Part shown: piece by piece, positions 655-33,500 of the stretch
Layout of the letters: each line of letters opens with the position of its first letter
Numbering within the stretch: position 1 is the first letter of the stretch
Source: Verrucomicrobiota bacterium
GTDB taxonomy: Bacteria; Verrucomicrobiota; Verrucomicrobiia; Limisphaerales; AV2
NCBI GenBank assembly: GCA_003218515.1
Contig: QHNT01000333.1
Location: forward strand, 1-37,274
Direction of reading: 5' to 3'
DNA: 37,274 nt
Translations under genes and position numbers: made by a program
Notes under the pieces: model-generated
Told to the model about the DNA's origin: nothing
Seen by the model: the letters and a program-made list of their open reading frames with translations, nothing else
Database searches by the model: none

Positions 655-3600
655 ATGAACTCGTTCGATTTTAAAAGACTTCCACGAACCAGCGGGCTCC
701 TGGCGGTCGTTGCCATCACCACCGCCCTGCAGATCACGAACAAAAGCGCGGCCGCCAGCGCCGCGATGAATTGGCACACCGGTCCCGGCTATCGCTGGCG
801 CCAACTGCCGGTGGCTGGCGCCGGCAAGACCGGGTTCACCCTTCTGCCGCCATCATCGACCGGCATTCTTGTTACCAACCATATATCCGCAGAACGTTAC
901 CTCACCAACTCGATGCTCCTCAATGGCTCGGGTGTGGCTGCCGGGGACGTGGATGGCGATGGTTTGTGCGATCTTTACTTCTGCGGATTGGATGGGCCGA
1001 ATGTGCTCTACCGCAATCTTGGCGGTTGGAAATTCGAGGACGTTACGGCTGCTGCCGGAGTGGCCTGCCCTGCCCTGGACGCGACCGGCGCGGTATTCGC
1101 GGACATCGACGGCGATGGCGATCTGGACTTGATCGTCAATTCGCTGGGGGGCGGAACACACGTTTTCTTAAATGATGGCCAGGGGCACTTCACCCCGCAA
1201 ATCAACACGCCGCCGTTGAACTACCAGCGAGGCGGCACTTCTCTGGCGCTGGCCGACATCGACGGCGATGGGGACCTGGACTTGTATGTGGCCAACTACC
1301 GCACCTGGACGATTCGCGACCAACCCGTCAGTGCCGTCAGGGTTGAGACCGTGCAAGGCCGGCCGACCGTCGTGCAAGTCAACAACCGGCCCGTCAGCGA
1401 TCCCGATCTGGTGGGCCGATTCACCGTCGGCGCCAACGGCGCTCTCCAGGAACACGGCGAGGCGGACGCACTCTACCTCAATGACGGCACGGGCCGATTC
1501 AGTCCCGTTCCGTTCACGGGCGGAAGCTTTCTCGACGAGGACGGACAACCGCTGACCGAACCCCCGTATGACTGGGGGTTATCCGTCATGTTCAGAGACA
1601 TGAACGGCGATGGCGCGCCGGATATTTATGTTTGCAACGATTTCCACTCGCCCGACCGCATCTGGATCAACTCCGGCAAAGGCCAATTTCGAGCCATTCC
1701 CCGGCTTGCCCTGCGTCACACCAGCATTTATTCCATGGGCGTCGATTTTGCCGATATCAATCGCGATGGTTATGACGACTTTTTTGTCGCGGACATGTTG
1801 AGTCGTCATCATCAGCAACGCCACAATCAGGGTGGAATCCTGTTTCCTGTTCATGTGACCATTGGTGAAATGGAGAACCGCCCGCAATACTCGCGGAACA
1901 CCCTTTTCCTGAATCGCGGCGACGGGACCTATGCGGAGATCTCTTCATTGAGCGGCACGATTTCGTCGGACTGGTCGTGGACTCTGATTTTCCTCGATGT
2001 CGATTTGGATGGCTTCGAGGATTTGCTGATCACCACCGGCCACGAACTCGACTCGGCGAATGTGGATGTGATGAATCGCGCGGAAGCGATCATGGCCGCA
2101 AAGAAACTGTCCGCCCTCCAGCAAATTTATTTGCGCAAGATGTACGACCGCTTGGACGTTCCGAAGGTGGCGTTTCGGAATCGTGGAGACCTGACATTTG
2201 AGGAAGTTGGTGAGGCCTGGGGTTTCAACACGCGCGGGGTCGCTCACGGAATGGCCTTGGCGGACCTGGACGGGGACGGGGACCTGGACGTGGTGATGAA
2301 CAATCTGAACGGGGCGGCGGGCGTGTATCGCAACGAGGGTGTGGCGCCGCGTGTGGCGGTGCGCTTGAAAGGGCAATCGCCGAACACGCGCGGGATCGGG
2401 GCGAAGGTTTGGATGTATGGGGGCGCGGTGCCGATGCAGAGCCAGGAGATGATCTGCGGGGGCAGATACTTGAGCAGTGATGATCCGATGCGGGTGTTTG
2501 CGGCCGGGAGTCTGACCAACGAGATGCGGATTGAAGTGCGGTGGCGGAGCGGGAAACGGAGTGTGGTCAATGGGGTGAAGGCGAATCGGATTTATGAACT
2601 CGAGGAGGCGGGAGCGGAACCTGCAAACTCCAAGCTCCAAGCTCCAAGCTCCAAAGAAACTCCCAACTTCCAACATCCAACTTCCAACTCCGAAACGAAG
2701 GCGGTGTTTGAGGATGTGAGCCGGTTGATTGGGCACGTGCATCATGAGGAGGAGTATAATGATTTTGAGCGGCAGCCGTTGTTGCCGAAGAAGCTCAGTC
2801 AGTTGGGGCCTGGGGTGGCGTGGCATGACGTGGACGGAGACGGTTGGGACGATTTAATCGTGGGCAGTGGTCGGGGCGGGCGTCTGGCGGTGTATCGGAA
2901 CGATGGCCAAGGGGGGTTCAAGGCCTGGAGCGGGGCGCCTTTTGACAAGGTGGTCGGGCGGGACCAGACGACGGTGTTGGGGACGGAGTTGGGGTTGTTG
3001 GTGGGTTCTGCGAACTACGAGGACGGATCGACCAACGGTGGTTGCGTGCGGATTTACGATGTCAAGCGGCAGGTGAGTGGCGAGAGTGTGCTGGGGCAGG
3101 GATTCAGCGTGGGGCCACTGGCTTTGGCGGACGTGGACGGGGATGGTGATTTGGATTTGTTCGTGGGAGGCCGAGTGCTACCGGGCCGGTATCCGGAACC
3201 GGTCGATTCGCTGTTGATGAAGAACGAAGGCGGTCGGTTGGTGGTCTTGCAACGATTCGAAAAGCTGGGATTGGTGAGCGGAGCGGTCTTTAGCGATCTG
3301 GATGGGGACGGGAAGCCGGAGTTGATATTGGCCTGCGAATGGGGGCCGATCCGGGTTTTTCACAACGACGGCGGCCGGTTCCAGGAAGTGACGCAGCAAG
3401 CAGGCTTGAGCGCCTACACGGGCTGGTGGAACGGAGTGACGACGGGCGATCTGGACGGAGACGGCAGGCAGGACATCGTTGCCTGCAACTGGGGCCGGAA
3501 CACCCGATTCCAAAGTCACCTGCAGCAGCCTCTGCGGCTTTACTACGGGGATTTCATTGGAGATGGAACGGTTAGTTTGGTGGAAGCCTATTTCGACCAG

Positions 3601-4422
3601 GAATTGAATGAGATCGTTCCCTGGCGGGACCTGAGGGCCATGGCCCGAGCGCTGCCCTGTGTGCAGGAAAAATTCACCAGCTATCGCGCGTATGGCGGGG
3701 CCAGCGTGGCGGAGACCCTGGGAGCGAAGTTCAGCGCGGTCACGGAATTAGGAGCGGCCACGCTGGACTCGATGGTTTTTCTGAATCGCGACGGAAAATT
3801 TGAAGCGCGCTCATTGCCGATGGAAGCCCAGTTCGCGCCTGCTTTTGGCGTATGTGTCGGGGACATGGATGGGGATGGCAAGGAAGATGTTTTCCTGAGC
3901 CAGAATTTTTTTGCCACGCTTCCGGAAGAGTGGCGTCAAGACGCCGGTCGCGGCTTATGGCTCAGAGGTGATGGTCAGGGCGGGTTGAAGGCGGTGTCTG
4001 GCCAGGAAAGCGGCGTGGCGGTTTACGGCGAGCAACGCGGCTGCGCCTTGGCTGACTACGATGGCGACGGGCGCGTGGATTTGGTCGTGACGCAGAACGG
4101 CAATGCGACGAAGCTGTTTCACAATGTGGGGGCGAAGCCGGGTTTGCGCGTGCGGCTGAAAGGCGGTCCGGGCAATCCGACGGGAGTGGGGGCGCAGATG
4201 CGGTTGATTTACGGGGAGCGCAAGGGCCCGGCACGGGAGATTCACGCGGGCTCAGGGTACTGGTCGCAGGATGGGGCGGTGGAGGTGCTGGGCACGCCCC
4301 AAGCCCCCACACAGCTCTGGGTGCGGTGGGCCGGAGGCAGGACCACGACAAATTCTGTTCCCGCCGGCGCGCGCGAGATCGAGGTTGACGTTGAGGGAAA
4401 AATGGGAGTGCTCCGCCAATGA
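655..4422 (+). CDS. Twin FG-GAP/VCBS-ASPIC/UnbV (CRTAC1-like) secreted protein
   Basis: The product has 1255 residues. An N-terminal basic/hydrophobic stretch (about residues 8-37, ending near SAAASAA) looks like a Sec signal peptide. It is followed by the family's conserved mature start (NWHTGPGYRW, GKTGFTLL), propeller 1 with many DGDGDLDLxV loops (about 95-555), ASPIC/UnbV 1 (about 563-650), a linker coded by heptanucleotide repeats (about 656-682), propeller 2 (about 710-1150), and ASPIC/UnbV 2 (about 1161-1250, GSGYWSQD). These loops normally bind calcium. Proteins of this double layout are usually annotated only as VCBS repeat-containing proteins; the ligand is unknown. The start directly abuts the previous stop, and the stop overlaps the next start (ATGA). 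From about position 2255 the codons become strikingly G-rich compared with the N-terminal half, suggesting a mosaic gene. Confidence 0.88.
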   Translation: MNSFDFKRLPRTSGLLAVVAITTALQITNKSAAASAAMNWHTGPGYRWRQLPVAGAGKTGFTLLPPSSTGILVTNHISAERYLTNSMLLNGSGVAAGDVDGDGLCDLYFCGLDGPNVLYRNLGGWKFEDVTAAAGVACPALDATGAVFADIDGDGDLDLIVNSLGGGTHVFLNDGQGHFTPQINTPPLNYQRGGTSLALADIDGDGDLDLYVANYRTWTIRDQPVSAVRVETVQGRPTVVQVNNRPVSDPDLVGRFTVGANGALQEHGEADALYLNDGTGRFSPVPFTGGSFLDEDGQPLTEPPYDWGLSVMFRDMNGDGAPDIYVCNDFHSPDRIWINSGKGQFRAIPRLALRHTSIYSMGVDFADINRDGYDDFFVADMLSRHHQQRHNQGGILFPVHVTIGEMENRPQYSRNTLFLNRGDGTYAEISSLSGTISSDWSWTLIFLDVDLDGFEDLLITTGHELDSANVDVMNRAEAIMAAKKLSALQQIYLRKMYDRLDVPKVAFRNRGDLTFEEVGEAWGFNTRGVAHGMALADLDGDGDLDVVMNNLNGAAGVYRNEGVAPRVAVRLKGQSPNTRGIGAKVWMYGGAVPMQSQEMICGGRYLSSDDPMRVFAAGSLTNEMRIEVRWRSGKRSVVNGVKANRIYELEEAGAEPANSKLQAPSSKETPNFQHPTSNSETKAVFEDVSRLIGHVHHEEEYNDFERQPLLPKKLSQLGPGVAWHDVDGDGWDDLIVGSGRGGRLAVYRNDGQGGFKAWSGAPFDKVVGRDQTTVLGTELGLLVGSANYEDGSTNGGCVRIYDVKRQVSGESVLGQGFSVGPLALADVDGDGDLDLFVGGRVLPGRYPEPVDSLLMKNEGGRLVVLQRFEKLGLVSGAVFSDLDGDGKPELILACEWGPIRVFHNDGGRFQEVTQQAGLSAYTGWWNGVTTGDLDGDGRQDIVACNWGRNTRFQSHLQQPLRLYYGDFIGDGTVSLVEAYFDQELNEIVPWRDLRAMARALPCVQEKFTSYRAYGGASVAETLGAKFSAVTELGAATLDSMVFLNRDGKFEARSLPMEAQFAPAFGVCVGDMDGDGKEDVFLSQNFFATLPEEWRQDAGRGLWLRGDGQGGLKAVSGQESGVAVYGEQRGCALADYDGDGRVDLVVTQNGNATKLFHNVGAKPGLRVRLKGGPGNPTGVGAQMRLIYGERKGPAREIHAGSGYWSQDGAVEVLGTPQAPTQLWVRWAGGRTTTNSVPAGAREIEVDVEGKMGVLRQ
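2622..2700 (+). repeat. Heptanucleotide repeat cassette (AAGCTCC / AACTTCC) in the interdomain linker
   Basis: The cassette contains AAACTCC followed by three AAGCTCC units (2632-2652), a 12-bp spacer, then AACTTCC, AACATCC, AACTTCC and AACTCCG (2665-2692). The period is 7 bp, so each unit shifts the reading phase, yet the whole cassette stays in frame. It is translated as a hydrophilic Ser/Asn/Pro/Lys-rich linker between ASPIC/UnbV 1 and propeller 2. With its left flank (from 2605) it differs from 32434-32529 at only three positions in 96 bp. Confidence 0.9.
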
Positions 4423-7400
4423 AATGTTTTTTGAGTGGGCAACACTCCGTCGCAAACGCACTGCTTCAGCTTGCCCTTGGGTCCTTGTTCCTGGCGCAAG
4501 GTGGATTCCTGGCTGAAAGCAGCGGGTTGAATTGGCAAACCGGACCAGGCTATCGTTGGAGCGAATTGTCGGTGCCCCAAATCGGCAAGACCGGTTTCAC
4601 ATTCCTGCGGCCGGAAACCACCGGGATTACCTTTACCAACTTTATTACCGATGAACGATCGGTCACCAACCAGAATCTGTTGAACGGTTCGGGGGTTGCG
4701 CTGGGTGACGCGGACGGCGACGGCCTGTGTGATGTCTATCTATGCCGTCTCGACGGCAACAACAACAAACTCTTCCGCAATCTCGGCAATTGGAAATTCG
4801 AGGATATCACCGATTCCGCCGGGGTCGGCTGCGGAGGTCAGAATTCGACGGGCGCTGTCTTCGCCGACATTGACGGAGACGGCGATCTGGACCTGCTGGT
4901 CAATTCGATGGGAGGCGGCACCCGGGTTTTCGTGAACGACGGCAAGGGTCATTTCAAAGAAACTACCGCGCAGGCCGGCGTCGCCTCAAGGACAGCCGGC
5001 ATGTCCATGGCGTTGGCGGACGTGGATGGTGACGGAGACCTGGATTTGTATGTGTCCAATTACCGATCTTCAACCATCCGCGAGGAGGTGGGCACAAAAT
5101 TCTCGATCAACATCGTCGATGGAAAACCGGTCCTGGTCAAAGTGAATGGCAAGCCGGCCAGCAGTCCGGAATACGCGGGTCGATTTGCCGTCGGGCCGCA
5201 CGGTAAGATTCTTGAATTCGGTGAGGTGGACGTTCTCTATCTCAACGATGGGAAGGGACATTTTACGCCGCTTTCCTTCACCAACAGCGACTTTTTTGTC
5301 GATGAAGACGGAAAATGCTTAACGGAGCCGCCGGGCGACTGGGGACTCGCGGTCCAGTTTCACGATTTGAACGGGGATGGCGCCCCGGACATTTACGTTT
5401 GCAATGATTTGTTTACGCCGGACCGTATCTGGATCAACGATGGCAAAGGAAAATTCCGCGCCTTACCCAGACTGGCACTGCGCAATACGAGCACGTTCTC
5501 AATGGGCGTGGACTTTGCCGACGTGAATCGTGACGGGCTAGTTGATTTTCTGGTCGTGGACATGTTAAGTCGCGTTCATCAGAAGCGGCAGGTGCAGGTG
5601 GGTGAGTCCGGTCCGATTCTGTCACCAGTCGGTCTCTTCGATAACCGGCCGCAAGTCGAACGCAACACTCTGCAGATCGGTCGCGGTGACGGCACCTTCA
5701 CGGAAGTGGCCTTCTATGCCGGTGTCGAGGCTTCTGAGTGGTCCTGGACGCCGATCTTCCTCGATGTCGATCTGGATGGCTTCGAGGACATTCTGGTGGC
5801 GAACGGCCAACTCCGCGACTTCCAAAACGGCGATATGCTCGACCGGCTCGAGTCTGCGCAGGCGGGAAGAACACTTTCGCGAGCGGATATTCTGCTTATC
5901 TGGGAACTCTTTCCCCGTCTGGAGACTCCCAAGGTGGCCTTTCGCAATCGCGGCAACTTGACCTTTGAAGAAATGGGCGCCGCGTGGGGCTTTAACACCT
6001 CGGGCAACTCCCGAGGAATGGCGTTGGCGGACCTGGACGGGGACGGCGACCTGGATGTCGTGGTGAATAATTTCAACGCGGTGGCCGGGGTGTATCGGAA
6101 TGAGACCGCGGCGCCGCGTGTGGCGGTACGGCTGAAGGGTCAGGCGCCCAACACGCAGGGTATCGGGGCCAGGATTTGGCTCTACGGCGGGGCGGTTCCA
6201 ATGCAGAGCCAGGAGATGATCTGCGGGGGCAGATACTTGAGCGGTGATGATCCGATGCGGGTGTTTGCCGCGGGGAGTCTGACCAATGCGATGCGCATTG
6301 AAGTGAGGTGGCGCAACGGGAAGCGGAGTGTGGTCAATCGGGTGAGAGCGAATCGGATTTACGAGATTGACGAAGCCCAGGCAACCTCGAACCTCGAACC
6401 TCGAACCTCGGACCTCGAACCTCGGCCGGTGTTTGAAGACGTCAGCCAACGGCTGCAACACAGCCATCATGAGGAGGAGTATAATGATTTTGAGCGGCAG
6501 CCGTTGTTGTCCAGGAAGCTGAGCCAGTTGGGGCCGGGAGTGGGGTGGTATGACGTGGATGGAGACGGGTGGGAGGACCTGATCATTGGCAGCGGGCGTG
6601 GGGGGCAGTTGGCCGTGTATCGCAATGACGGGCACGGTGGTTTTCAGCGGTGGAACGGGGCGCCCTTTGAGCGGGTGGTGACACGGGATCAGACGACGGT
6701 GTTGGGGACAGAGTTCGGTTTGTTGGCTGGTTCGGCGAACTACGAGGACGGGCTGACCAACGGCGGGTGCGTGCGGATTTATGAAGCGAAACGGAAGGTG
6801 AGCGGGGAGAGTGTGCTGGGGCAACGGTTCAGCGCGGGGCCGCTCGCTCTGGCGGACGTGGATGGAGACGGCGACTTGGACTTGTTTGTGGGCGGACGCG
6901 TGGTGGCCGGCCGGTATCCGGAGGCGACGGATTCACTGTTGTTGAAGAACCAAGGGGGTCGCTTGGTGCTGGATCAGCGGTTGGACAAGGTGGGATTGAC
7001 CAGCGGGGCGGTGTTCAGCGATCTGGACAATGACGGACAGCCGGACCTGGTATTGGCGTGTGAATGGGGGCCAGTGCGAGTATTTCACAATGAGGGTGGA
7101 AAGTTGAAGGAAATGACCGAACAATGGGGGCTGAGCCGTTACACGGGCTGGTGGAACGGCGTTACCACGGGAGACCTGGACGGAGACGGGCGGCTGGACA
7201 TTATCGCGAGCAACTGGGGTCTGAACAGCAAGTATCGAACGAGCCGGGAACATCCGCGGAAGATTTATTACGGGGACCTGGACGGCAACGGGACGGTGGA
7301 CGTGATCGAGGTCTATTATGACGCGGGGATGAAAACGGAGGTGCCGGAGCGGCGCTGGCGTGCGGCGGGCACGGCGTTGCCGTTTTTGAGGGAGAAATTC

Positions 7401-8000
7401 AGCACGTACGAAGCCTACGGCAAGGCGAGCCTCAAAGAGATTTACGCGGACAAGCTCAAGCAGATGAAGGTGGTGGAAGCGAACACATTGGAGAGCATGG
7501 TCTTTTTGAACCGGGACGATCACTTTGAAGCGCGGGCGTTGCCGCTGGAGGCGCAGTTGGCGCCGGCCTTCGCGGTGTGCGTGGGGGACTATGATGGGGA
7601 CGGGAAAGAGGACCTGTTTCTGAGTCAGAATTTTTTCCCGATGAACCCGGAGACTTCCCGGTGTGATGCGGGAAGGGGCTTGTGGCTGAAGGGGGACGGG
7701 AAAGGCAATTTGGCAGCGGTGGCTGGGCAGGAGAGCGGAGTGATCGGGATTGCTGGTGCGGTTGAAAGGCCCGGCGGGCAATGCACAGGCAGTCGGGGCG
7801 CAGGTACGCCTCAAATTCAGAGATCACTTCGGCCCGGCGCGAGAGGTCCATGCCGGCAGTGGATACTGGTCGCAGGACAGCGCGGTGCAGGTGCTGGCCA
7901 TACCCGAATCGCCGACGCAGATTTGGATCCGATGGCCGGGCGGCAAAGTTACCACTGCCCCACTGCCGCCGAAACCCCTGGAAGTTGCCGTCAACCCTGA
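4419..8000 (+). CDS. Twin FG-GAP/VCBS-ASPIC/UnbV protein, frameshifted near its 3' end
   Basis: The start is fixed by the ATGA overlap with the upstream gene and by a signal peptide (about residues 1-30, hydrophobic LALGSLFLAQGGFLA) before the family motif LNWQTGPGYRW. Propeller 1, ASPIC/UnbV 1 (from about residue 564), the AACCTCG heptamer linker (residues 656-669) and propeller 2 are intact up to about residue 1108 (GQESGV, base 7744). There the sequence jumps. Roughly 40 codons present in all relatives (VYGEQRGAALCDYDGDGRVD and following residues) are missing, and the remaining codons to the stop at 8000 are in the wrong phase. The second ASPIC/UnbV domain continues in another frame (7745-8054). 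The product therefore probably lacks a correct C-terminus, or the assembly is wrong here. Confidence 0.8.
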   Translation: MKCFLSGQHSVANALLQLALGSLFLAQGGFLAESSGLNWQTGPGYRWSELSVPQIGKTGFTFLRPETTGITFTNFITDERSVTNQNLLNGSGVALGDADGDGLCDVYLCRLDGNNNKLFRNLGNWKFEDITDSAGVGCGGQNSTGAVFADIDGDGDLDLLVNSMGGGTRVFVNDGKGHFKETTAQAGVASRTAGMSMALADVDGDGDLDLYVSNYRSSTIREEVGTKFSINIVDGKPVLVKVNGKPASSPEYAGRFAVGPHGKILEFGEVDVLYLNDGKGHFTPLSFTNSDFFVDEDGKCLTEPPGDWGLAVQFHDLNGDGAPDIYVCNDLFTPDRIWINDGKGKFRALPRLALRNTSTFSMGVDFADVNRDGLVDFLVVDMLSRVHQKRQVQVGESGPILSPVGLFDNRPQVERNTLQIGRGDGTFTEVAFYAGVEASEWSWTPIFLDVDLDGFEDILVANGQLRDFQNGDMLDRLESAQAGRTLSRADILLIWELFPRLETPKVAFRNRGNLTFEEMGAAWGFNTSGNSRGMALADLDGDGDLDVVVNNFNAVAGVYRNETAAPRVAVRLKGQAPNTQGIGARIWLYGGAVPMQSQEMICGGRYLSGDDPMRVFAAGSLTNAMRIEVRWRNGKRSVVNRVRANRIYEIDEAQATSNLEPRTSDLEPRPVFEDVSQRLQHSHHEEEYNDFERQPLLSRKLSQLGPGVGWYDVDGDGWEDLIIGSGRGGQLAVYRNDGHGGFQRWNGAPFERVVTRDQTTVLGTEFGLLAGSANYEDGLTNGGCVRIYEAKRKVSGESVLGQRFSAGPLALADVDGDGDLDLFVGGRVVAGRYPEATDSLLLKNQGGRLVLDQRLDKVGLTSGAVFSDLDNDGQPDLVLACEWGPVRVFHNEGGKLKEMTEQWGLSRYTGWWNGVTTGDLDGDGRLDIIASNWGLNSKYRTSREHPRKIYYGDLDGNGTVDVIEVYYDAGMKTEVPERRWRAAGTALPFLREKFSTYEAYGKASLKEIYADKLKQMKVVEANTLESMVFLNRDDHFEARALPLEAQLAPAFAVCVGDYDGDGKEDLFLSQNFFPMNPETSRCDAGRGLWLKGDGKGNLAAVAGQESGVIGIAGAVERPGGQCTGSRGAGTPQIQRSLRPGARGPCRQWILVAGQRGAGAGHTRIADADLDPMAGRQSYHCPTAAETPGSCRQP
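6383..6424 (+). repeat. Heptanucleotide repeat (AACCTCG) x6 in the interdomain linker
   Basis: Six contiguous 7-bp units (four AACCTCG, one GACCTCG, one AACCTCG) lie exactly between ASPIC/UnbV 1 and propeller 2. The 42 bp equals 14 codons, so the frame is kept, and three units make one seven-residue peptide period (NLEPRTS-type). The gene at 11700-15419 carries the same six-unit array at the same place. Confidence 0.92.
7546..7744 (+). repeat. Exact 199-bp direct repeat, copy A
   Basis: It is identical base for base to 8055-8253 (offset 509). Copy A lies in its expected place, coding the last blade of propeller 2 (GDYDGDGKEDLFL to GQESGV). Its left neighbour is normal; its right neighbour jumps into the second ASPIC/UnbV domain with loss of about 40 codons. 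Confidence 0.95.
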
Positions 8001-8054
8001 AGGTCAAATCAAAATCGTGGTGGAAGACCAGGGTTCAAAGGTCAAAGGTCCGAG
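7745..8054 (+). pseudogene. Out-of-frame second ASPIC/UnbV domain of the gene starting at 4419
   Basis: Read in the phase that contains the TTG at 7750, this gives LLVRLKGPAGNAQAVGAQVR, then GSGYWSQDSAVQVL and WPGGK, a typical ASPIC/UnbV domain homologous to the C-termini of the neighbouring paralogues. It ends with IKIVVEDQGSKVKGPSGG, whose last part is coded by the TCAAAGG heptamer cassette. It has no start or signal of its own and is best seen as the displaced C-terminus of the preceding gene. A single connected repair (about 120 bp inserted after 7744) would restore the full-length family product. Confidence 0.8.
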
Positions 8055-8061
8055 TGGAGGC
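8019..8061 (+). repeat. TCAAAGG heptamer cassette at a gene end, partner at 25934-25976
   Basis: It contains two TCAAAGG units (8035-8048) followed by TCCGAGTGGAGGC. The 43-bp segment matches 25934-25976 with two mismatches (8030-8031). Here it follows the end of an ASPIC/UnbV 2 domain; the partner follows an ASPIC/UnbV 1 domain and leads straight into a stop codon. Confidence 0.85.
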
Positions 8062-8253
8062 GCAGTTGGCGCCGGCCTTCGCGGTGTGCGTGGGGGACTA
8101 TGATGGGGACGGGAAAGAGGACCTGTTTCTGAGTCAGAATTTTTTCCCGATGAACCCGGAGACTTCCCGGTGTGATGCGGGAAGGGGCTTGTGGCTGAAG
8201 GGGGACGGGAAAGGCAATTTGGCAGCGGTGGCTGGGCAGGAGAGCGGAGTGAT
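8055..8253 (+). repeat. Exact 199-bp direct repeat, copy B (misplaced)
   Basis: It is identical to 7546-7744 but stands where the next gene's signal peptide and first about 60 codons should be. The left junction is at the 7-bp microhomology TGGAGGC, shared by the heptamer cassette and the repeat. The right junction enters the next paralogue at its conserved SGVALGDVDGDG motif. Only the short stretch is copied, not a whole gene. Confidence 0.95.
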
Positions 8254-11200
8254 TCCGGCGTTGCGTTGGGCGATGTGGACGGCGATGGCTGGTGTGACAT
8301 CTACTTCTGTCGTCTGGAGGGGCCGAACGTGCTCTATCGCAATCTTGGCAACGGGAAATTTGACGACATCACGCAAGCTGCCGGGGTCGCTTGCGACGGG
8401 CAATTCTCAACCGGCGCAGCGTTTGCGGACATTGACGGGGACGGTGATTTGGATCTGATGGTCAACTGCATCGGCGGCGGCACGCGTGCTTTCCTGAATG
8501 ATGGGCGCGGGCATTTTACGGAGACGCAAGACACACGGCTGGTTCGAAAGTTCGGCAGCACCTCCATGGCCTTGGCCGATGTGGATGGCGATGGGGACCT
8601 GGATTTATACGTGACGAACTATCGGACCGACACGCACAAGGATATTCCGGGTCTCAAAATCGAAGCGAAAATGGTGGAGGGCAAGGTAACGATCACGCCG
8701 ACGAACCGGTTCATCGCGTTGACGCCGCAGAACGGAGCCGTGGAAGTGATCGAAAAAGGTGAGCAGGACTTTTTGTATCTCAACGACGGCAAAGGCCGTT
8801 TTGCGCCGGTATCCTGGACCGCGGGAGGCTTTTTAGACGAAGACGGCAAACCTCTCACAGCGCCGCCGACCGACTGGGGCCTGAGCGTGACGTTTCGCGA
8901 CATCAACGACGATGGCCTGCCGGACATTTACGTGTGCAACGATTTCTTTTACTGGCCCGACCGCATCTGGATCAGCGACAAGGCCCGGCGGTTTCGCGCC
9001 ATTCCACGGCTGGCGGTGCGCAACCAGAGCCTGTCGTCCATGGCGGTTGATTTCGCGGACATAGATCGCGACGGTTACGATGATTTCTTTGTCGCTGAGA
9101 TGCTGAACCGCGATCATCAGGCGCGACAGAGGCACCGCGAAAATCTGATTCACAAACAGTGGAACCTGCCCATGACCGATCCAATTTTTCGTCCGGAAGT
9201 CACGCGGAACACCCTGCAATTGAACCGCGGCGATGGCACGTATGCGGAGATTGCTCAGCTCAGCGGTGTGCCATTCAGCGACTGGACCTGGAGCGCGATT
9301 TTCCTGGATGTGGACCTGGATGGCTATGAGGATTTGCTGCTGACGACAGGACATCACTATGATGTGCAGGACACGGACACACTACGGGAGCTTTCAAAAC
9401 TCAGGGAGCCGGACACGCTGGAGAACCGCATCAAAAATATGCACAGGTTTCCCCGCCTGGACACGGAAAAACTGGCCTTTCGCAATCAGCACGACCTGAG
9501 CTTCGCGGAGATGAGCGCGCCCTGGGGATTCAACACCGTCGGCGTTTCGCACGGCATGGCGCTGGCCGACCTGGACAACGACGGTGATCTGGACGTCGTT
9601 GTCAACAACCTGAATCAAGCGGCAGGAATTTATCGCAATGAAACGACTGCGCCCCGAGTGGCCGTGCGACTCAAAGGCCGGCCGCCCAACACGCGAGGCA
9701 TCGGGGCAAAAATCTGGCTTTATTCCGGGGCGGTGCCGGTGCAGAGCCAGGAGATGATCTGCGGGGGACGCTATCTTTCGTGCGATGATACCATGCGAGT
9801 GTTCGCCGCCGGAAGCTTGACCAATGAGATGCGGATTGAGGTGCGGTGGCGAAGCGGCAACCGCGGCGTGGTCAACGGCGTCCGTGCCAATCGAGTCTAT
9901 GAAATTGATGAAGCGGGAGCGCAGCCGTATCAAGAACCGTTGAAACCCGAAACCAAGCCGTTTTTCCGGGAAGTCAGCGAGCGGATTGACCACCGGCATC
10001 ACGACGAACCATTCGATGATTTTGCCCGCCAGCGCTTGTTGCCGCGGCGCCTCAGTCAACTCGGTCCCGGCGCGGCCTGGTGCGACGTCAACGGCGACGG
10101 ATGGGAGGACTTGATCGTCGGCTGCGGACGGGGCGGCCGGTTAAGTATTTTTCTGAACGACGGCAAAGGCGCTTTCGAACCCGCGCAGGTCCCGCAGTTC
10201 GCGCAGCCAGTGGCGCGTGACCAGACGGGCATCGCCGCGTGGGTCAAGGACGGCAAAACAGTTCTGCTGGTCGGCTCGGCGAATTACGAGGATGGTTTGG
10301 CAGCCGGCCCGAGCGTGCGGCAATTCGATTTTGGCGGTAAAGTCGTTGACGACAGTCTGCCGGGCCAGACGAGCAGCACCGGGCCGCTCGCTTTGGCGGA
10401 TTTCAATGGGGACGGACATCTCTGTTTGTTTGTCGGGGGGCGCGTCATTCCGGGACGCTATCCGGAGGCCGCCTCTTCGATGTTCTTTCGCGACGCGGGC
10501 GGTCGATGGGAGTTGGACGCGGAAAACACAAAACGACTGGCGCAAGTCGGCCTGGTCAGCGGCGCGGTTTGGAGCGACCTGGACGGCGATGGCCTGCCGG
10601 AGTTGATGCTGGCGTGCGAATGGGGGCCGGTGAGGGTCTTCCGAAACCACAGTGGCCGGTTGACAGAAGCGACAGAGGAATGGGGACTCGCCAAGTATTA
10701 CGGCTGGTGGAATGGCGTCAATGCGGGTGATTTTGACGGCGATGGGAAGATGGACATCATCGCGGGCAATTGGGGGCGAAACACAAAATATCAATGGTAT
10801 TTGGAACAACCGACACGCATCTTTTATGGTGACTTCCGCCGGGACGGGACGGCGGAAGTCGTGGAGGCGAGCTTCGATCCCGATCTAAAAAAAATTGTTC
10901 CCTGGCGCGACCTGAATGCGATGACCATGGCGTTGCCGTTTGTGCAGGAAAAATTTCAAACGTGCCGAGCGTATGGCCGCGCGAGTGTGCAGGAAATTCT
11001 GGGCGACGAGGCGATCCGTGCGGCCGAATTGAAAGCCAACACGCTCGACTCGATGGTTTTTTTGAATCGCGGCGGGCGCTTTGAAGCCAGGCCGTTGCCG
11101 GCAGAGGCGCAGTTCGCGCCGGCCTTTGCCGTTTGCATCGGCGATTACGACGGCGACGGCGATGAAGACGTCTTTTTGAGCCAGAATTTTTTTGATGTGG

Positions 11201-11703
11201 AAGTGGAGACCTCGCGCTACGACGCGGGACGCGGCCTTTGGCTGCACGGCAACGGGCACGGGGATTTCCAAGCGGTCCCCGGTCAGGAGAGCGGGGTAAG
11301 AATTTACGGCGAACAGCGCGGCGCGGCGCTCTGCGACTACGATGCGGATGGCCGCGTCGATTTGGTCGTGACACAGAACAGTCAGGAGACAAAACTGTAT
11401 CACAACGAAGGCGCGAAGCCGGGACTCCGCGTGCGGCTGAAAGGGCCGCCGGGCAACCCGAACGGCGTCGGCTCGGTCATGCGATTGAAGCAAGGGCGGT
11501 GGATCGGCCCGGCCCGCGAAATCCACTCGGGTGGCGGATACTGGTCTCAGGACAGCGCGGTGCAGGTATTGGCTGCGTCCGAACCGGCGACGCAAATCTG
11601 GATTCGCTGGCCGGGCGGCAAGACCACGACCGGCGCTGTCGCCGCCGGCGCGCGCGAAATTGAAGTTGATATCGACGGGAAAGTAAAAGTGCTTCGCCAA
11701 TGA
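8191..11703 (+). CDS. Twin FG-GAP/VCBS-ASPIC/UnbV protein lacking its signal-peptide end
   Basis: True family sequence begins only at about 8254 (SGVALGDVDGDGWCDIYFCR). The preceding 21 codons are an off-frame reading of the 199-bp repeat, so the ATG at 8191 is probably not the native start, and no signal peptide or mature N-terminus (NWQTGPGYRW) is present. From there the protein is complete: propeller 1, ASPIC/UnbV 1 (from about residue 487), a plain linker without heptamers (AQPYQEPLKPETKPFFREV), propeller 2, and ASPIC/UnbV 2 (from about residue 1076, GGGYWSQDS) ending KVKVLRQ. Its codons are C-rich throughout, unlike the G-rich second halves of its neighbours, so it has escaped homogenisation. 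The stop overlaps the next ATG (ATGA). As written it would be cytoplasmic or not expressed. Confidence 0.78.
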   Translation: MAEGGRERQFGSGGWAGERSDSGVALGDVDGDGWCDIYFCRLEGPNVLYRNLGNGKFDDITQAAGVACDGQFSTGAAFADIDGDGDLDLMVNCIGGGTRAFLNDGRGHFTETQDTRLVRKFGSTSMALADVDGDGDLDLYVTNYRTDTHKDIPGLKIEAKMVEGKVTITPTNRFIALTPQNGAVEVIEKGEQDFLYLNDGKGRFAPVSWTAGGFLDEDGKPLTAPPTDWGLSVTFRDINDDGLPDIYVCNDFFYWPDRIWISDKARRFRAIPRLAVRNQSLSSMAVDFADIDRDGYDDFFVAEMLNRDHQARQRHRENLIHKQWNLPMTDPIFRPEVTRNTLQLNRGDGTYAEIAQLSGVPFSDWTWSAIFLDVDLDGYEDLLLTTGHHYDVQDTDTLRELSKLREPDTLENRIKNMHRFPRLDTEKLAFRNQHDLSFAEMSAPWGFNTVGVSHGMALADLDNDGDLDVVVNNLNQAAGIYRNETTAPRVAVRLKGRPPNTRGIGAKIWLYSGAVPVQSQEMICGGRYLSCDDTMRVFAAGSLTNEMRIEVRWRSGNRGVVNGVRANRVYEIDEAGAQPYQEPLKPETKPFFREVSERIDHRHHDEPFDDFARQRLLPRRLSQLGPGAAWCDVNGDGWEDLIVGCGRGGRLSIFLNDGKGAFEPAQVPQFAQPVARDQTGIAAWVKDGKTVLLVGSANYEDGLAAGPSVRQFDFGGKVVDDSLPGQTSSTGPLALADFNGDGHLCLFVGGRVIPGRYPEAASSMFFRDAGGRWELDAENTKRLAQVGLVSGAVWSDLDGDGLPELMLACEWGPVRVFRNHSGRLTEATEEWGLAKYYGWWNGVNAGDFDGDGKMDIIAGNWGRNTKYQWYLEQPTRIFYGDFRRDGTAEVVEASFDPDLKKIVPWRDLNAMTMALPFVQEKFQTCRAYGRASVQEILGDEAIRAAELKANTLDSMVFLNRGGRFEARPLPAEAQFAPAFAVCIGDYDGDGDEDVFLSQNFFDVEVETSRYDAGRGLWLHGNGHGDFQAVPGQESGVRIYGEQRGAALCDYDADGRVDLVVTQNSQETKLYHNEGAKPGLRVRLKGPPGNPNGVGSVMRLKQGRWIGPAREIHSGGGYWSQDSAVQVLAASEPATQIWIRWPGGKTTTGAVAAGAREIEVDIDGKVKVLRQ

Positions 11704-14700
11704 ATCGTTTTCTGTCCGGGCTTCGCTCTTTGGCGAAAGCACCGCGCCACCTGGCCTTCCTGTCTTTTCTTTTCGTGGGCCTGACACTCGTTGCCGAAGG
11801 AGCCGGTTTGAGTTGGCAAACAGCGCCAGGCTATCGCTGGAGCGTATTGCCCGTGCCCAAAGCCGGCAGAACCGGGTTCACGTTGCTCAAGGGGTCGGTC
11901 ACTGGAATTTTGTTTGCAAACCTCCTCGACGATGAACATTCGCTGACGAATCGGAATCTGCTCAGCGGTTCAGGCGTTGCGGCGGGCGACGTGGACGGCG
12001 ACGGACAAGTGGACCTGTATTTTTGCGGGCTGGACAACCCCAACGAGCTTTACCGCAACCTCGGCCAATGGAAATTCGAGGACATCACCGCCAGCGCCGG
12101 CGTGGCGTGTGCGGGGCAATATTCCACCGGGGCGGTTTTAGCCGATATCGACGGGGACGGAGATTTGGATTTGCTGGTCAACGCGCTGGGGGGCGGGACG
12201 CGATTGTTCCTGAACGACGGCCAGGGCCATTTCACCGAGTCAACGGACAGCGGGTTGATTCGAAGACAGGGCAGCATGTCGATGGCGCTGGCGGACGTGG
12301 ACGGTAACGGCACGTTGGACCTTTATGTCGCGAACTTTCGCGCGGAAACCATCCGCGATGAACCGACAACAAAGTTCCACGGGCAACTCGTCGAAGGCCG
12401 ACCGGTGATTACGGCGGTGAACGACAGGCCTGCTACGTTGCCGGATTACACGAATCGTTTCGTTCTCACTCCTTCGGGTAACGTGTTGGAATTCGGCGAA
12501 CCGGATGTCCTGTATCTCAACGACGGCAGAGGGCATTTCCAGCCCAGGTCGTTCACAGACGGTTCGTTCCTCGATGAAGATGGGGTGCCGTTGACCGACC
12601 CGCCGAGGGACTGGGGTCTCGCGGCGCAGTTTCACGACCTCGACGGCGACGGTACGCCGGACATTTACGTCTGCAACGACTTGTTCACGCCGGACCGCAT
12701 CTGGGTCAATGACGGCCGGGGGAAATTCCGCGCTCTGCCGCGTCTTGCACTGCGCAACACGAGCACCTTTTCGATGGGGGTCGATTTCGCGGACATCGAT
12801 CGCGACGGCTACATTGACTTCTTCGTCGTCGATATGCTCAGCCGCGACCATCAAAAGCGGCACGTCCAGGTCAGCGAAAGCAACCCGACGCCGCTGCCCG
12901 TCGGGTTGATCGACATTCGTCCGCAGGTCTTGCGAAACAATCTCCAGATCAATCGCGGCGACGGGACCTTCGCGGAGGCGACTTACTATGCCGGCCTGGA
13001 AGCCTCTGAATGGTCGTGGGGACCGATCTTTCTCGACGTGGATTTGGATGGATTCGAGGACATTCTCGTGACCAACGGCCAGTTGCGCGATTTCCAAAAC
13101 ATCGATATGGCCAATCGCATTGAAGCTCTGCGGGCGGCTGGAAAATTGACGCGCCCCGAATGGCTGAGATTGCTGCGGTCTTATCCGAGTCTGGTCACGG
13201 CCAAGGTTGTCTTCCGCAATCGCGGAAATCGGACGTTCGATGAGAAAGGCGCGGAATGGGGTTTCAGCACTCCAGGCATTTCCCAGGGCATGTGTCTGGC
13301 GGACCTGGACGGGGACGGGGACCTGGATGTGGTGGTGAACAATTTAAACGGGGCGGCGGGCCTTTACCGCAACGAGAGCCATGCGCCGCGGGTGGCGGTG
13401 CGGCTGAAGGGTCAGGCGCCCAACACGCGGGGGATCGGAGCGAAGGTCCGGGTGTATGGGGGAGCGGTGCCGATGCAAAGCCAGGAGATGATCTGCGGGG
13501 GCAGATACTTGAGCGGTGATGATGCGATGCGAGTGTTTGCGGCGGGGAGTCTGACCAATGAGCTGCGGATTGAAGTGAGCTGGCGCAGCGGGAAACGGAG
13601 TGTGGTCAATGGCGCGAGGGCCAACCGGATTTACGAGATTGCCGAAGCCCAGGCAACCTCGAACCTCGAACCTCGAACCTCGAACCTCGAACCTCGGCCG
13701 GTGTTTGAAGACCTGAGCGGGTTGATCGGCCATGTCCACCACGAGGAGCCGTACAATGATTTTGAACGGCAACCGTTGTTGCCCCGCAAACTGAGCCAGT
13801 TGGGGCCGGGTGTGGGGTGGTATGACGTGGACGGGGATGGGTGGGAGGACCTGATCATTGGCAGCGGGCGCGGGGGGAAAGTGGGGGTGTATCGCAACGA
13901 TGGTCGGGGCGGGTTCAAGCCGTGGGCCGGGGCGCCTTTTGAGAAGGTGGTGACGCGGGACCAGACGGCGGTGTTAGGGACGGAGTCCGGCTTGTGGGTG
14001 GGTTCGGCGAACTACGAGGACGGGCTGACCAACGGGGGATGCGTGCGGATTTATGAAGCCGGCCAGAAGGTGAGCGCGGAGAGTGTGCTGGGCCAACGGT
14101 TCAGTGCGGGGCCACTGGCGCTGGCGGATGTGGATGGGGAGGGGCAACTGGATTTGTTTGTGGGCGGTCGAGTGCTGGCGGGCCGGTATCCCGAGGCGAG
14201 CGATTCGCTGTGGCTGAAGAACGAAGCGGGACGGCTGATCGTCCATCAGCGCTTGGAGCAGGCGGGCCTGGTCAGCGGGGCGGTCTTCAGCGATCTGGAC
14301 GGCGACGGGAAACCCGACCTGGTGTTGGCCTGCGAATGGGGACCGATCAAAGTGTTCCACAATGAGGGAGGGCAATTGAAAGAAGTGACCGAGCGATGGG
14401 GACTGAGCGGTTACACGGGCTGGTGGAACGGGGTGAACGTGGGGGACTTCGACGGCGACGGGCGAATGGATATTGTGGCGAGCAACTGGGGATTGAACAG
14501 CCAGTATCGCGCGAGCCGGGAACATCCGCGGAAGATTTACTACGGGGACCTGGCCGGCAACGGGGCGGTGGACGTGATCGAGGCCTACTATGATGAGGCG
14601 ATGAAGCAGGAAGTGCCGGAGCGTGGATTGCGGACGGTGGGAGCGGCGCTGCCGTGGGTGAAAGAGAAATACCCGAGCTATGCCGCCTATGGTCGGGCGA

Positions 14701-24008: not shown

Positions 24009-25988
24009 ATGATCTGCATTCGGCATCGGGTGCGAAACAATCTCCGGTCGCTCAGGTCCAGGTCTTGCGCAGCGCGAGTCGGCTTTGCCGTGGCTTTGGT
24101 CTCCTCTCTCCAAAGCGGCAGCGCTCTCGAGTGGCAGACGGGCAACGGCTGGCGAAGCGCCCAACTGCCCGTCGCGAAGTCGGGTTCAACGGGCTTCATG
24201 CTGCTGCCACCGTCGGTGACTGGGATCGGATTTACAAACCAGTTGTCGGACACGAACGCCGCGCTGAACCAAATCCGCCTCAATGGCTCCGGCGTTGCGG
24301 CGGGCGACCTGGATGGCGACGGACGGGTGGACCTGTATTTTTGCGGGCTGGACAACTCCAACGTGCTTTACCGCAACCTCGGCCAATGGAAATTCGAGGA
24401 CATCACCGCCCGCGCCGGCGTGGCGTGCCCCGGGCAATATTCCACCGGGGCGGTTTTCGCCGACATCGACGGGGACGGGGATGTGGATTTGCTGGTCAAC
24501 GCGCTGGGGGGCGGGACGCGATTGTTCCTGAACGACGGCCAGGGCCATTTCACCGAGTCAACGGACAGCGGGTTGATTCGAAGACAGGGCAGCATGTCGA
24601 TGGCGCTGGCGGACGTGGACGGTAACGGCACGCTGGACCTTTACGTCGCCAATTATCGCACGACGACCATCCGCAGCACTGGATTGGACATGCTGAATGT
24701 CAATGGCCGTCGAATGCTGCGCCCTCAGGATCGCGATGACTATGTACTCACTCCCGAGGGACTGGTGCGCGAACGCGGCGAGCCGGATATTTTGTACCTG
24801 AATGAAGGCAAGGGGAAGGTAAGACCCGTGTCATGGACAGGGGGTTCTTTTCTGGATGAGGAAGGCAAGCCCCTCGCGTCGCCTCCACGGGATTGGGGGC
24901 AGTCGGTCATGTTCCGGGACCTGGATGGCAACGGCGCGCCGGACATCTATGTTTGCAACGATTTTTGGAGTCCCGACCGCGTGTGGATCAATGATGGCAG
25001 GGGAAAATTCCGCGCGCTCTCAGGAAGGGCTCTGACGAAAACCAGCAGTTTCTCGATGGGCATCGATTTTGCGGACGTTAACCGCGACGGCCTGGATGAC
25101 TTCATCGTTCTCGACATGTTAAGCGCAGACCATGTTCGGCGCATGAGCCAATTTTCCGAGACAGCAACCGCCTCGCTCCCGAACGGAGTCGGGACCGACC
25201 CTGAGCGTCCTCAAGTCGCGCGCAACACCCTGTTTCTGAATCGCGGCGACGGCACTTTTTCGGAGATCGCATTTTTTAGCCGCCTCGAAGCCACTGAATG
25301 GTCCTGGTGTCCGGTTTTTCTGGATGTGGACCTGGACGGCTACGAGGACCTGTTGATTACGACCGGCTACAGCTTCGACACGCAGGACCTCGATGCCGAC
25401 CAGCGAATCAATGCCCTGGGCCCCTGGCCGCGGGAAAGGGTGCCCTTCAAACTGTTGATGTATCCGCCGCTACCGCTGCCGAACAAGGCATTTCGCAACG
25501 AGCATGATCTCACCTTTCGGGAAGTGAGTCATGAGTGGGGCTTTGATTTCAAAGGGGTGTCGCAGGGGATGTGTTTGTGTGATTTGGACAACGACGGGGA
25601 CCTGGATGTGGTGGTGAACAATATGAACGGGGCGGCGGGCCTTTACCGCAACGAGAGCAATGCGCCGCGGGTGGCGGTGCGGTTGAAGGGTCAGGCGCCC
25701 AACACGCAGGGTATCGGTGCCAGGATTTGGCTTTACGGCGGGGCGGTGCCGATGCAAAGCCAGGAGATGATCTGCGGGGGCAGATACTTGAGCGGTGATG
25801 ATCCGATGCGGGTGTTTGCGGCGGGGAGTCTGACCAATGAGATGCGCATCGAAGTGAGGTGGCGCAACGGAAAACGGAGCGCCGTAAACGGAGTGAACGC
25901 CAACCGGATTTATGAAATCATCGAGGCGGGAGCGGTGGAAGACCCCGGTTCAAAGGTCAAAGGTCCGAGTGGAGGCTCAACAAAATGA
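24009..25988 (+). CDS. Half-length twin-family CRTAC1-like protein (propeller 1 plus ASPIC/UnbV 1 only)
   Basis: 659 residues against about 1240 in relatives. The N-terminus is basic and then hydrophobic (ARVGFAVALVSSLQSGSA), a probable signal peptide, before LEWQTGNGWRSAQLPVAKSG. Propeller 1 is complete, and ASPIC/UnbV 1 spans about 552-640. The protein then runs into the TCAAAGG heptamer cassette (coding GSKVKGPSGG) and stops after STK, exactly where the linker to propeller 2 lies in other members. The TGA overlaps the ATG of a short remnant (ATGA), as in the main array. Internally it is mosaic: a 149-bp block is identical to the gene at 11700, and ASPIC/UnbV 1 changes from that gene's sequence type to that of the gene at 4419. 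It could be functional as a single-propeller protein. Confidence 0.85.
   Translation: MICIRHRVRNNLRSLRSRSCAARVGFAVALVSSLQSGSALEWQTGNGWRSAQLPVAKSGSTGFMLLPPSVTGIGFTNQLSDTNAALNQIRLNGSGVAAGDLDGDGRVDLYFCGLDNSNVLYRNLGQWKFEDITARAGVACPGQYSTGAVFADIDGDGDVDLLVNALGGGTRLFLNDGQGHFTESTDSGLIRRQGSMSMALADVDGNGTLDLYVANYRTTTIRSTGLDMLNVNGRRMLRPQDRDDYVLTPEGLVRERGEPDILYLNEGKGKVRPVSWTGGSFLDEEGKPLASPPRDWGQSVMFRDLDGNGAPDIYVCNDFWSPDRVWINDGRGKFRALSGRALTKTSSFSMGIDFADVNRDGLDDFIVLDMLSADHVRRMSQFSETATASLPNGVGTDPERPQVARNTLFLNRGDGTFSEIAFFSRLEATEWSWCPVFLDVDLDGYEDLLITTGYSFDTQDLDADQRINALGPWPRERVPFKLLMYPPLPLPNKAFRNEHDLTFREVSHEWGFDFKGVSQGMCLCDLDNDGDLDVVVNNMNGAAGLYRNESNAPRVAVRLKGQAPNTQGIGARIWLYGGAVPMQSQEMICGGRYLSGDDPMRVFAAGSLTNEMRIEVRWRNGKRSAVNGVNANRIYEIIEAGAVEDPGSKVKGPSGGSTK
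24484..24632 (+). repeat. 149-bp block identical to 12166-12314
   Basis: Partner of the block in the last array gene. Sequence diverges from 24633 onward and has scattered differences left of 24484. Confidence 0.9.
25934..25976 (+). repeat. TCAAAGG heptamer cassette at the truncated gene end, partner at 8019-8061
   Basis: Two TCAAAGG units (25950-25963) followed by TCCGAGTGGAGGC; 41 of 43 bases match 8019-8061. It occupies the linker position of the twin family but is followed within four codons by a stop and the start of another family member, consistent with a deletion that joined a linker to a gene end. Confidence 0.85.
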
Positions 25989-26161
25989 AGAACAGCTCAG
26001 TGAGCTTTTGCGGGCTTTTGATTTTAGGTGTCGGGATTTCCCAATTGCTCGGCGGCGAACGACGGTGGCATGAAGCAGGAGGATTCCGATGGGCTGACCT
26101 GGAAGTTCCTCGGAGCGGGAAAACGGGATTCACGCGGGAAAGAATAGGACAGCTGGTTTAA
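25985..26161 (+). pseudogene. 58-codon remnant of a twin-family gene (signal peptide and mature N-terminus)
   Basis: It starts at the ATGA overlap with the previous gene and reads MKNSSVSFCGLLILGVGISQ (signal peptide), then RRWHEAGGFRWADLEVPRSG and KTGFT, the family's mature start (compare LNWQKADGFRVAKLPVPSSG in the gene at 30568). After GKTGFT homology ends, and RERIGQLV precedes a TAA at 26159-26161. Everything from propeller 1 onward is gone. This shows that a second coupled array once existed here. A small secreted peptide of about 35 residues could still be made, but I consider it a relic. Confidence 0.8.
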
Positions 26162-26173
26162 TTACGTAAACGA

Positions 26174-30305: not shown

Positions 30306-30357
30306 TGAGCGGTTGATGTGGGGCGCATCAGTTTCTTGCAGGGCGCATGGGCGGCTG

Positions 30358-30421
30358 GTGGCACGGGCGTCCCGCCCGGTTGCTCCAAACCAGAAACTCA
30401 CGGGCGGGACACCCGTGCCAC
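30358..30421. repeat. REP-like palindrome (GTGGCACGGG...CCCGTGCCAC)
   Basis: The arms 30358-30378 and 30401-30421 are complementary over 21 bp with one mismatch and flank a 22-base loop. Motifs of this kind are familiar in Verrucomicrobiota and related genomes, where spurious translations give peptides such as TGVPPV and GRDARAT (my recollection, not a search). Likely a non-autonomous dispersed repeat; it would form a strong hairpin in RNA. Confidence 0.75.
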
Positions 30422-30567
30422 TAGCGAAAATGGCCGAACGAATCGGCTTGCCATGAAACGGGCGAGGGCTAGGTTGGCCGCCGAACAACAGACCGCTCCT
30501 CGCAACAAGAGAAGCGATTTCGAGCTGAACACCGTTGCGACCAAACGCACAGCGTCTTCCCGCCAAA

Positions 30568-33500
30568 ATGAGATTTGCCGGAAAAAGCATTTGTGCCGTC
30601 CTCCTCTCTGTTTCAACTGGAGTCGGCGTTTTGCCCACCGATGCCGCTCCTTTGAACTGGCAGAAGGCCGATGGCTTCCGGGTGGCAAAGCTGCCGGTCC
30701 CCTCCTCCGGCAAAACCGGCTTCAGCCTTCTCCCTCCCGAAATGACCGGCATCCATTTCACCAACACATTGCCCGAGAGCCGCACGATGACGAACGTGAA
30801 TTTAATGAATGGATCGGGCGTTGCGCTGGGCGATTACGATGGCGATGGCCTTTGCGACATTTATCTGTGCAATTTGAATGGGACGAATGCTCTTTATAAA
30901 AATCTCGGGAACTGGAAATTCAGGGACGTGACCGAAGAAGCCCGGGTGGTTTGTCCGGGCCAGACTTCCACCGGCGCAGTGTTTGCGGATGTCAATGGGG
31001 ACGGTTATCTGGATTTGCTGGTCACGTCCATGGGCGGGCCGAATGCCTGTTTTTTGAATGACGGGCACGGTCATTTTACCAATGTCACGATCGCTGCCGG
31101 GCTGGTGTCGAAGCTGGGCAGCACCTCGATGGCGCTGGCCGACGTTGACGGCAACGGCACGTTGGACCTCTATGTTGCCAACTACGGCGTCACTTCGATT
31201 CTGCGCACCGGCGGGACGTTAGCCTTTTCCTACGTCAATGGCCAACCCGTAGTCCGTGGACGCAACGCACAGCGAATCAAGATCATTGATGGAATGATGT
31301 ATGAACTGGGCGAGCCGGACGTTTTGTATTTGAACGACGGCAAAGGCACGTTCACCCCGGTTTCCTGGACGGACGGAACGTTCCTCGGCGAAAACGGCAA
31401 GCCACTCACCCAGGCCCCGTGGGACCAGGGATTGTCGGTGTCATTTCGTGACCTCAACAGCGACGGCTATCCCGACCTCTATGTTTGCAACGACGCCTTC
31501 ACTCCGGATCGCTGCTGGATCAACGATGGCCACGGCCATTTTCGCGCGCTCAGCCCCCTGGCCTGGCGTTCTACCAGCTATTTTTCGATGGGGATCGATT
31601 TCGCTGACATTGATCGGGACGGCAACGACGATTTTCTGGTCGTTGATATGTTGAGCCGACAACATCGGTTGGCGCTCACGCAGAAAAGCAGCATGCACCC
31701 GCAACCCCGCCTGCCCGGAAATTTTGAGACCCAAATTCAAATCCGCCGCAACACGCTGTTCCTGAATCGCGGCGACAGCACCTATGCCGAAATAGCCAAC
31801 TATGGCGGTGTGGCCGGGTCGGAATGGACCTGGAGCGCGATCTTTCTCGATGTGGACCTTGACGGTTGGGAAGACATCTTGATCTGTAACGGCTTCCCTC
31901 ACGACGTGGACGATGCCGACATCCGGCAGCGCGTCAAAGGCATGACGGTCGATGAATCAAGAAAGGCGCTTCCGCTCTACCCTCGTCTGAACACACCCAA
32001 CATCGCTTTTCGCAACCAACACGACCTGACGTTCCGCGAGGCGGGCAGGGAATGGGGATTCGATTCAACCGAAGTCTCCAACGGGATGGCTCTGGCTGAC
32101 CTGGACAATGACGGCGACTCGGATGTCGTGGTCAATTGTTTGAACGGTCCGGCATTAATTTACCGCAATGAAACCGCGGCGCCGCGACTCGCCGTGCGCT
32201 TGCGCGGCACATCGCCCAATTCACAAGGCATCGGAGCAAAAATCAAAGTTTATGGCGGGCCGGTGACACAAAGCCAGGAAGTCATCTGTGGCAGTCGTTA
32301 CCTGTCCGGCGATGATCCGATGCGGGTCTTTGCCGCCGGCAGCTCGACCAGCCTCACCGTCGAAGTGACCTGGCGCAGCGGCGCGCGGAGCGTCGTACAC
32401 AATTGCCAACCGAATCACTTTTACGAAATCGCTGAGGCGGGGGCGGAACCTGCAAACTCCAAGCTCCAAGCTCCAAGCTCCAAAGAAACTCCCAACTTCC
32501 AACTGCCAACTTCCAACTCCGAAACGAAGCCGGTGTTTGAAGATGTCAGCGAACGGCTGCGACACAAACATCATGAAGAATTGTTCGACGACTTCGCGCG
32601 TCAGCCACTCCTGCCCAATCGTCTGAGTCAGCTCGGCCCGGGCGTCGCGTGGTTCGATTTGGACGGCGACGGACGAGATGACTTGATCATTGCCAGCGGC
32701 CAGGGAGGCAAACTGGCCGTGTATCACAACGATTCGCAGAAAGGTTTTCAATTGCTTGAATCGCCGGCTTTGAACGATCCGGTGAAGCGTGATCAGACAA
32801 CCGTGCTCGGCTGGTCGCCCGCGCCGGGGGTCGCTTCTCTGCTGGTTGGGTCGGCGAATTACGAAGATGGCGCGACCAACGGCGAGTCCGTGCTGCGTTA
32901 TGATTTTCAAAACGGCATCTTGAACAGGGCGGCAGGCCTGCCGGCGCAAGCGGCCAGCGCCGGTCCGCTCGCTCTGGCGGACCTGGATGGCGATGGCACT
33001 CTGGATTTGTTTGTGGGCGGTCGAGTCGTCCCCGGACGCTATCCCGAAGCGGCTGCTTCATACCTTTATCGCTACGACGGCAAGCAATGGCAGTTGGACG
33101 CGGAGAACAGCGGGCTCCTGCAAAGAGTCGGTTTGGTCAGCGGCGCAGTTTGGAGTGACCTGGACGGCGACGGTTTTCCGGAGCTGATTCTGGCCTGTGA
33201 ATGGGGACCGGTGCGGGTGTTTAAAAAACAATCCGGCAAACTGCGTGAAGTCACCGAAGCACTTGGCCTTGCCGGATTCACCGGCTGGTGGACCGGCGTG
33301 ACCACCGGTGACCTCGATGGCGATGGGCGGCTGGACATTATTGGGTGCAACTGGGGGCTCAACCATTCCTATCACGCCAGCCGCGAACACCCCGCGCGCC
33401 TTTATTTCGGCAACTGGAATGACACTGGGAATATCGACCTGCTGGAAGCGGAAGACGACCCGCAACTCGGCGCAGTTCCTCGGCGCGACTTTGGCGCGGT

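Follow-up and report, generated by a model that had tools for sequence, protein, structure and literature searches.

Heptanucleotides are reported to be the commonest class of long simple sequence repeat (SSR) in many bacteria (PMC4679880). The LSSRs of this class (Mrazek 2007, via PMC4679880) and the cyanobacterial STRRs consist of 7-bp units in few copies that are dispersed, mostly intergenic and patchily distributed, and the arrays analysed here are like them in these respects. They differ from the systems so described in comprising 25 related units within a sample of one genome, in having one-quarter of the arrays in inverted pairs, and in occurring in frame within loops of conserved proteins, where relatives carry different arrays in the same loop. 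The TAACTGA repeats of Beggiatoaceae and Cyanobacteria, for which a regulatory role has been proposed, are likewise patchily distributed 7-bp direct repeats, whose tolerance between protein modules is noted by their author; they involve one fixed unit placed mostly just upstream of start codons, whereas here the units are many and some are in loops and linkers (PMC4679880). The heptamers associated with G-quadruplexes, GGGAATC in Xanthomonas and GGGGA(C/T)T in Nostoc, are also dispersed and in part intragenic, their positions are often conserved between species, and some GGGAATC repeats form inverted pairs, as do some of the arrays here; however, the window units lack the G-runs that quadruplexes need, and in-frame colonisation of loops is not among the features described in the accessible part of that work (PMC4692102). 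The palindromic elements of Rickettsia (Ogata 2000, 2002, reviewed in PMC10969869) offer the analogy for in-frame repeats at structure-compatible positions in unrelated conserved genes. These elements are palindromic, ~150 bp long and conserved within a family in sequence and peptide, whereas the present arrays are short, variable, of 7-bp period and in many cases without a palindrome: in-frame insertion in conserved genes was found, a conserved ~150-bp sequence or peptide was not. Heptanucleotide repeats, and in-frame repeats of the Rickettsia kind, are thus known already; colonisation of the same loop together with array replacement has no description in the literature we searched and is the part worth following. 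The search returned no paper on heptanucleotide repeats in Verrucomicrobia.

The window, by which we mean the whole stretch of 37,274 nt analysed, is contig C297 of a 5.89-Mb draft genome in 490 contigs, and its nearest named relatives are Verrucomicrobia MAGs whose scaffold names carry a depth label of 20-30 cm, presumably in soil. The window contains paralogues, some in tandem and some dispersed, that bear FG-GAP repeats together with UnbV_ASPIC domains (ORFs, Pfam). Those of ~1,200 residues are built of two FG-GAP/UnbV_ASPIC halves each, and in 4 of the 5 two-half paralogues a heptamer array is found exactly between the halves. The features are as follows.

655-4422, + strand: two-half CRTAC1-like protein, FG-GAP plus UnbV_ASPIC twice (ORF, Pfam; the second UnbV_ASPIC-like end from half-to-half alignment, with no Pfam match)
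2616-2694, + strand: linker array (AAGCTCC)n-AAAGAA-(AACTCCC/AACTTCC)n, in frame (repeat scan, linker comparison)
4419-8000, + strand: second paralogue, 3' end frameshifted or rearranged near 7745-8253 (ORF)
6378-6427, + strand: linker array AACCTCG x6, one unit mutated, in frame (repeat scan, linker comparison)
8035-8050, + strand: TCAAAGG x2.3 at an apparent rearrangement junction, outside a linker (repeat scan)
8191-11703, + strand: third paralogue, without N-terminus, array-free linker at ~9913-9957 (ORF, linker comparison)
11700-15419, + strand: fourth paralogue (ORF)
13650-13701, + strand: linker array AACCTCG x6, perfect, in frame (repeat scan, linker comparison)
24009-25988, + strand: single-half paralogue, stop at 25986-25988 soon after a TCAAAGG repeat (ORF)
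25950-25965, + strand: TCAAAGG x2.3 near the C-terminus of the single-half ORF (repeat scan)
30535-34278, + strand: fifth two-half paralogue (ORF)
32445-32523, + strand: linker array, near-identical copy of 2616-2694 (repeat scan, identity)

All four linker arrays are placed between the UnbV_ASPIC end of the first half and the start of the second, and all keep the reading frame, as the first-pass annotation of this DNA had noted. The remaining two-half paralogue (8191-11703) has a 45-nt linker with no array, an empty form that is also the common one in other genera. The AAGCTCC/AACTTCC block read earlier at 2622-2700 and 32451-32529 was recovered by the repeat scan, as was AACCTCG x6 at 6383-6424 and 13655-13696, except that the array at 6383 is imperfect in one unit (GACCTCG). 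In an AlphaFold model of a linker fragment (mean pLDDT 60.8) the linker is of low confidence and has no secondary structure, which would agree, weakly, with a flexible linker. The linker arrays of the window do not fold as hairpins in a folding test.

The same annotation had spoken of three unrelated heptamers arriving independently at one linker. Only two array kinds occupy the four window linkers, each as a near-identical pair (6383 with 13655, 2622 with 32451), and the supposed third, TCAAAGG, lies outside a linker: at 25950-25965 it amounts to 2.3 copies (TRF score 32) at the C-terminal end of the single-half ORF. This site and 8035-8050 have a 28-nt context in common, and both look like rearrangement junctions. 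A 199-bp direct repeat without mismatches (7546-7744 and 8055-8253) is located where the second paralogue ends, and the TCAAAGG repeat at 8035-8050 just precedes its second copy; behind the TCAAAGG repeat at 25950, positions 25985-26161 hold a truncated paralogue start (~58 aa) which overlaps the stop of the single-half gene. The duplication at 7546-8253, the frameshift and the third paralogue lacking its N-terminus possibly represent one rearrangement or an artefact of MAG assembly. A junction related to that at 25985-26161 was seen in a related genome (G001, locus L181). Taken as a whole, the earlier observation was a good lead, sound as to real in-frame arrays in the linker and mistaken as to three kinds, a TCAAAGG linker and unrelatedness; it overstated one detail, the three unrelated repeats, and its idea of phase variation finds no support.

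Diversity at a single site does emerge once relatives are added. Besides AACCTCG and AAGCTCC/AACTTCC, the CRTAC1-like linker carries AGCAAAG (L153, L184, G003), GTCAGTN (L179 in the window's own genome, L189 in G004) and, in a genome of another family (G055), ACGCTCC (L195); REP-like nested palindromes are in frame at the same linker in L157 and L194 of G055. That the linker tolerates differing heptamers is thereby upheld. Across 222 kb of CRTAC1-like genes, 13 of 15 array rows, some of them not independent, map to query residues 642-674, the other two being from G055.

These arrays belong in a wider setting. A period-7 scan of 1.23 Mb of contigs sampled from the genome gave 61 matches, which reduce on merging to 58 arrays built from 25 canonical units, compared with none in dinucleotide-shuffled sequence; periods 5, 9, 11 and 13 gave no matches and periods 6 and 8 about ten each. 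A genome-wide process that makes or spreads heptamers, in line with the process postulated from the window at the outset, is supported by these counts, and in having tandem 7-bp units beyond chance, dispersed and mainly intergenic, the arrays agree with the LSSR/STRR class. Outside the window about one-quarter of the arrays are flanked on either side by coding signal within an ORF, and the rest lie outside genes or at their edges, gene calls being simple ORFs with a dicodon score. The units form a mutational network: 24 of 25 have a neighbour at one mutation (null mean 9.3, maximum 17), and TCAAAGG itself differs by one step from AAAGTTC, a unit of the genome, so the word "unrelated" does not suit the repeats. 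Distribution across order and phylum is patchy, with GGATTTC x3 present in 40 of the 196 order genomes (30 of 107 genera; reversed-pattern controls 0) and ATTCGTC x3 in 8 of 289 sampled across the phylum, where reversed-pattern controls also occurred in a few genomes.

Based on this evidence, the linker repeats of the window are probably part of a genome-wide heptamer population that is copied and exchanged, is roughly neutral and does not constitute a switch. The data show directly how abundant the arrays are, their period, positions and reading frame, the diversity at one site, the identity of blocks between paralogues and the constancy of length; we infer both the molecular route of spread and the neutrality. 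An array would arise or arrive at a site through replication-associated copying, that is, by slippage of 7-nt units together with transfer of whole array blocks between sites, singly or as inverted pairs able to fold into hairpins. Most arrays would persist between genes; those inside a gene would be retained solely in loops or linkers between domains, provided that the added length is divisible by three and contains no stop codon. The CRTAC1-like linker may be such a permissive site, at which arrays accumulate, pass between paralogues and are replaced over time, the outcome being a flexible peptide that is neutral or nearly so.

Evidence for block copying comes from the paralogues themselves. 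Identity is 94% between the linkers at 2600-2705 and 32434-32539, whereas it is 61% between the genes that contain them (655 and 30535; 0.47-0.73 in 100-bp windows). The upstream flank of the 655 gene resembles that of the 11700 gene more closely (0.86-0.91), but this does not extend to the linker (0.63). The linker block therefore appears to have been copied independently of its gene, whether through local gene conversion or through insertion; ordinary gene conversion could account for the array shared by the 655 and 30535 paralogues. Sixteen further partial matches are dispersed in the genome, and at three places (C475, C44, C308) two partial matches form an inverted pair. More generally, 15 of the 58 arrays have an inverted partner within 150 nt (0.6 expected), and most tested pairs fold strongly as DNA, with several hairpins at z of -3 to -5.5. 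Palindromes directly flanking arrays gave a weak signal (4 of 58 above the 99% null).

Regarding change within arrays, a single T-to-G change fills three adjacent units at unaltered length in L148 and in the MetRS of G004, which indicates that units turn over with the frame kept. Homologous arrays are constant in length: the AACCTCG stretch is exactly 42 bp in at least four homologous copies across species (L148, L178, window) despite mutated units, and in MetRS the segment with the array measures 99 nt in each of four species. Length changes of 9 nt (L149) and 3 nt (PriA) were seen and none of 7 nt, orthologues of different species showing no 7-nt difference in unit number, and the resolved gaps between paired halves are all multiples of three, with the exception of one gap between neighbouring genes.

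A bolder reading, which we put forward tentatively, is that the heptamer arrays of this order are a class of spreading non-autonomous repeats, in which self-copying blocks or hairpin pairs time and again enter the same in-frame loops of essential proteins and there give way to other arrays, the short low-complexity peptides that they encode being by-products of turnover. In-frame arrays, which also favour the explanation preferred above, occur in several conserved proteins, among them SelB, MetRS, YmdB, a PaaK-like ligase, PriA, a molybdopterin oxidoreductase and a kinase. On alignment to solved structures, the array is at or overlaps a gap in the relative for PriA (9 aa), MetRS (10 aa), YmdB (6 aa), SelB and PaaK (~6-7 aa each). 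The PriA loop just before Walker A, likewise in favour of that explanation, matches period 7 at no fewer than 15 of 21 positions in 11 of 12 genomes from 8 genera, a biased proportion and not the rate for the order, the 12 having been picked in part as heptamer-rich; this threshold is reached by 0.9% of random coding windows, and periods 5, 6 and 9 are at background. In the twelfth genome (G001) the loop holds a period-8 array, while the other genomes of the same genus share CCATCAA. PriA of G001 is 93% identical to that of G000, and G002 (88%) and G003 (86%) are more distant yet share CCATCAA with G000. The simplest reading of these sequences is that a different array replaced that of the genus in G001; alternatively, loop arrays of the PriA type could be ancient and merely diverging, not re-inserted. 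Among the array sites of this analysis, which compares draft MAGs, no pair of empty and filled sites was resolved at base level for an insertion. PriA loops of 29 further genomes are represented by match coordinates only. Two of other genera (G053, G051) show coordinates suggestive of in-frame insertions of ~1038 and 516 nt in the loop.

Plain slippage, in which each array would have grown where it now stands after a 7-nt stretch was duplicated by chance, with a polymerase footprint favouring period 7 (the proposal of Mrazek), seems unlikely as the whole account. The reported prevalence of heptanucleotides among long SSRs (PMC4679880), the concerted unit changes at constant length and the differing units from site to site are what it would lead one to expect. 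It does not readily accommodate the recurrence of the two-part block, with its similar AAAGAA-type interruption, at distant sites and between paralogues, nor inverted pairs at about 25 times the expected frequency, nor units that constitute a mutational network and not a random set. It is improbable that the arrays are selected as functional linkers or binding sites (e.g., for a nucleic-acid-binding protein) with an adaptive position: the strong linker preference in the CRTAC1-like family and the regulatory role proposed for TAACTGA repeats (PMC4679880) speak in its favour, but the sequence varies freely from one paralogue or species to another, 45-nt linkers free of arrays are common, and the other array sites are unrelated loops in housekeeping proteins. 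The phase-variation device suggested by the first-pass annotation, in which gain or loss of a 7-nt unit switches the downstream half on or off, could appeal to a unit that is not a multiple of three and hence shifts the frame, and to many paralogues with N-termini that read as signal-peptide-like, but on the comparisons between species and between paralogues made here it is very improbable, given the constant 42-bp and 99-nt segments, changes of 9 and 3 nt, half-to-half gaps in multiples of three (one neighbouring-gene gap excepted), like arrays in PriA, MetRS and SelB where an off state would harm, and a comparison of orthologues and paralogues in which the varying unit number and shifting frame of a contingency locus did not appear.

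The heptamer population described here brings together two known subjects hitherto kept separate: the overabundance of bacterial 7-bp repeats, which lacks an explanation, and in-frame selfish repeats in genes, of which those of Rickettsia are the best known. If arrays truly move and are replaced in PriA, MetRS and other loops, the order offers a series of natural experiments on period 7 and on the gain of loops. For annotators, peptides such as SEIRNPK and INHQPST are translated repeats and no conserved motifs.

Dispersed elements of other kinds were also observed. The element CGTAGCAGCCGACGTGAGGAGGCTC occurs with differing heptamer arrays alongside (L042 at ~11560, L068 at ~1820, L101 at ~2480, L014 at ~420, L084 at ~5050), and in L068 both of its arms are present with an array in the loop. 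At 30330-30430 of the window there is an intergenic palindrome, GGCACGGGCGTCCCGCCC...GGGCGGGACACCCGTGCC, the core of which is matched three times in the 1.23-Mb sample.
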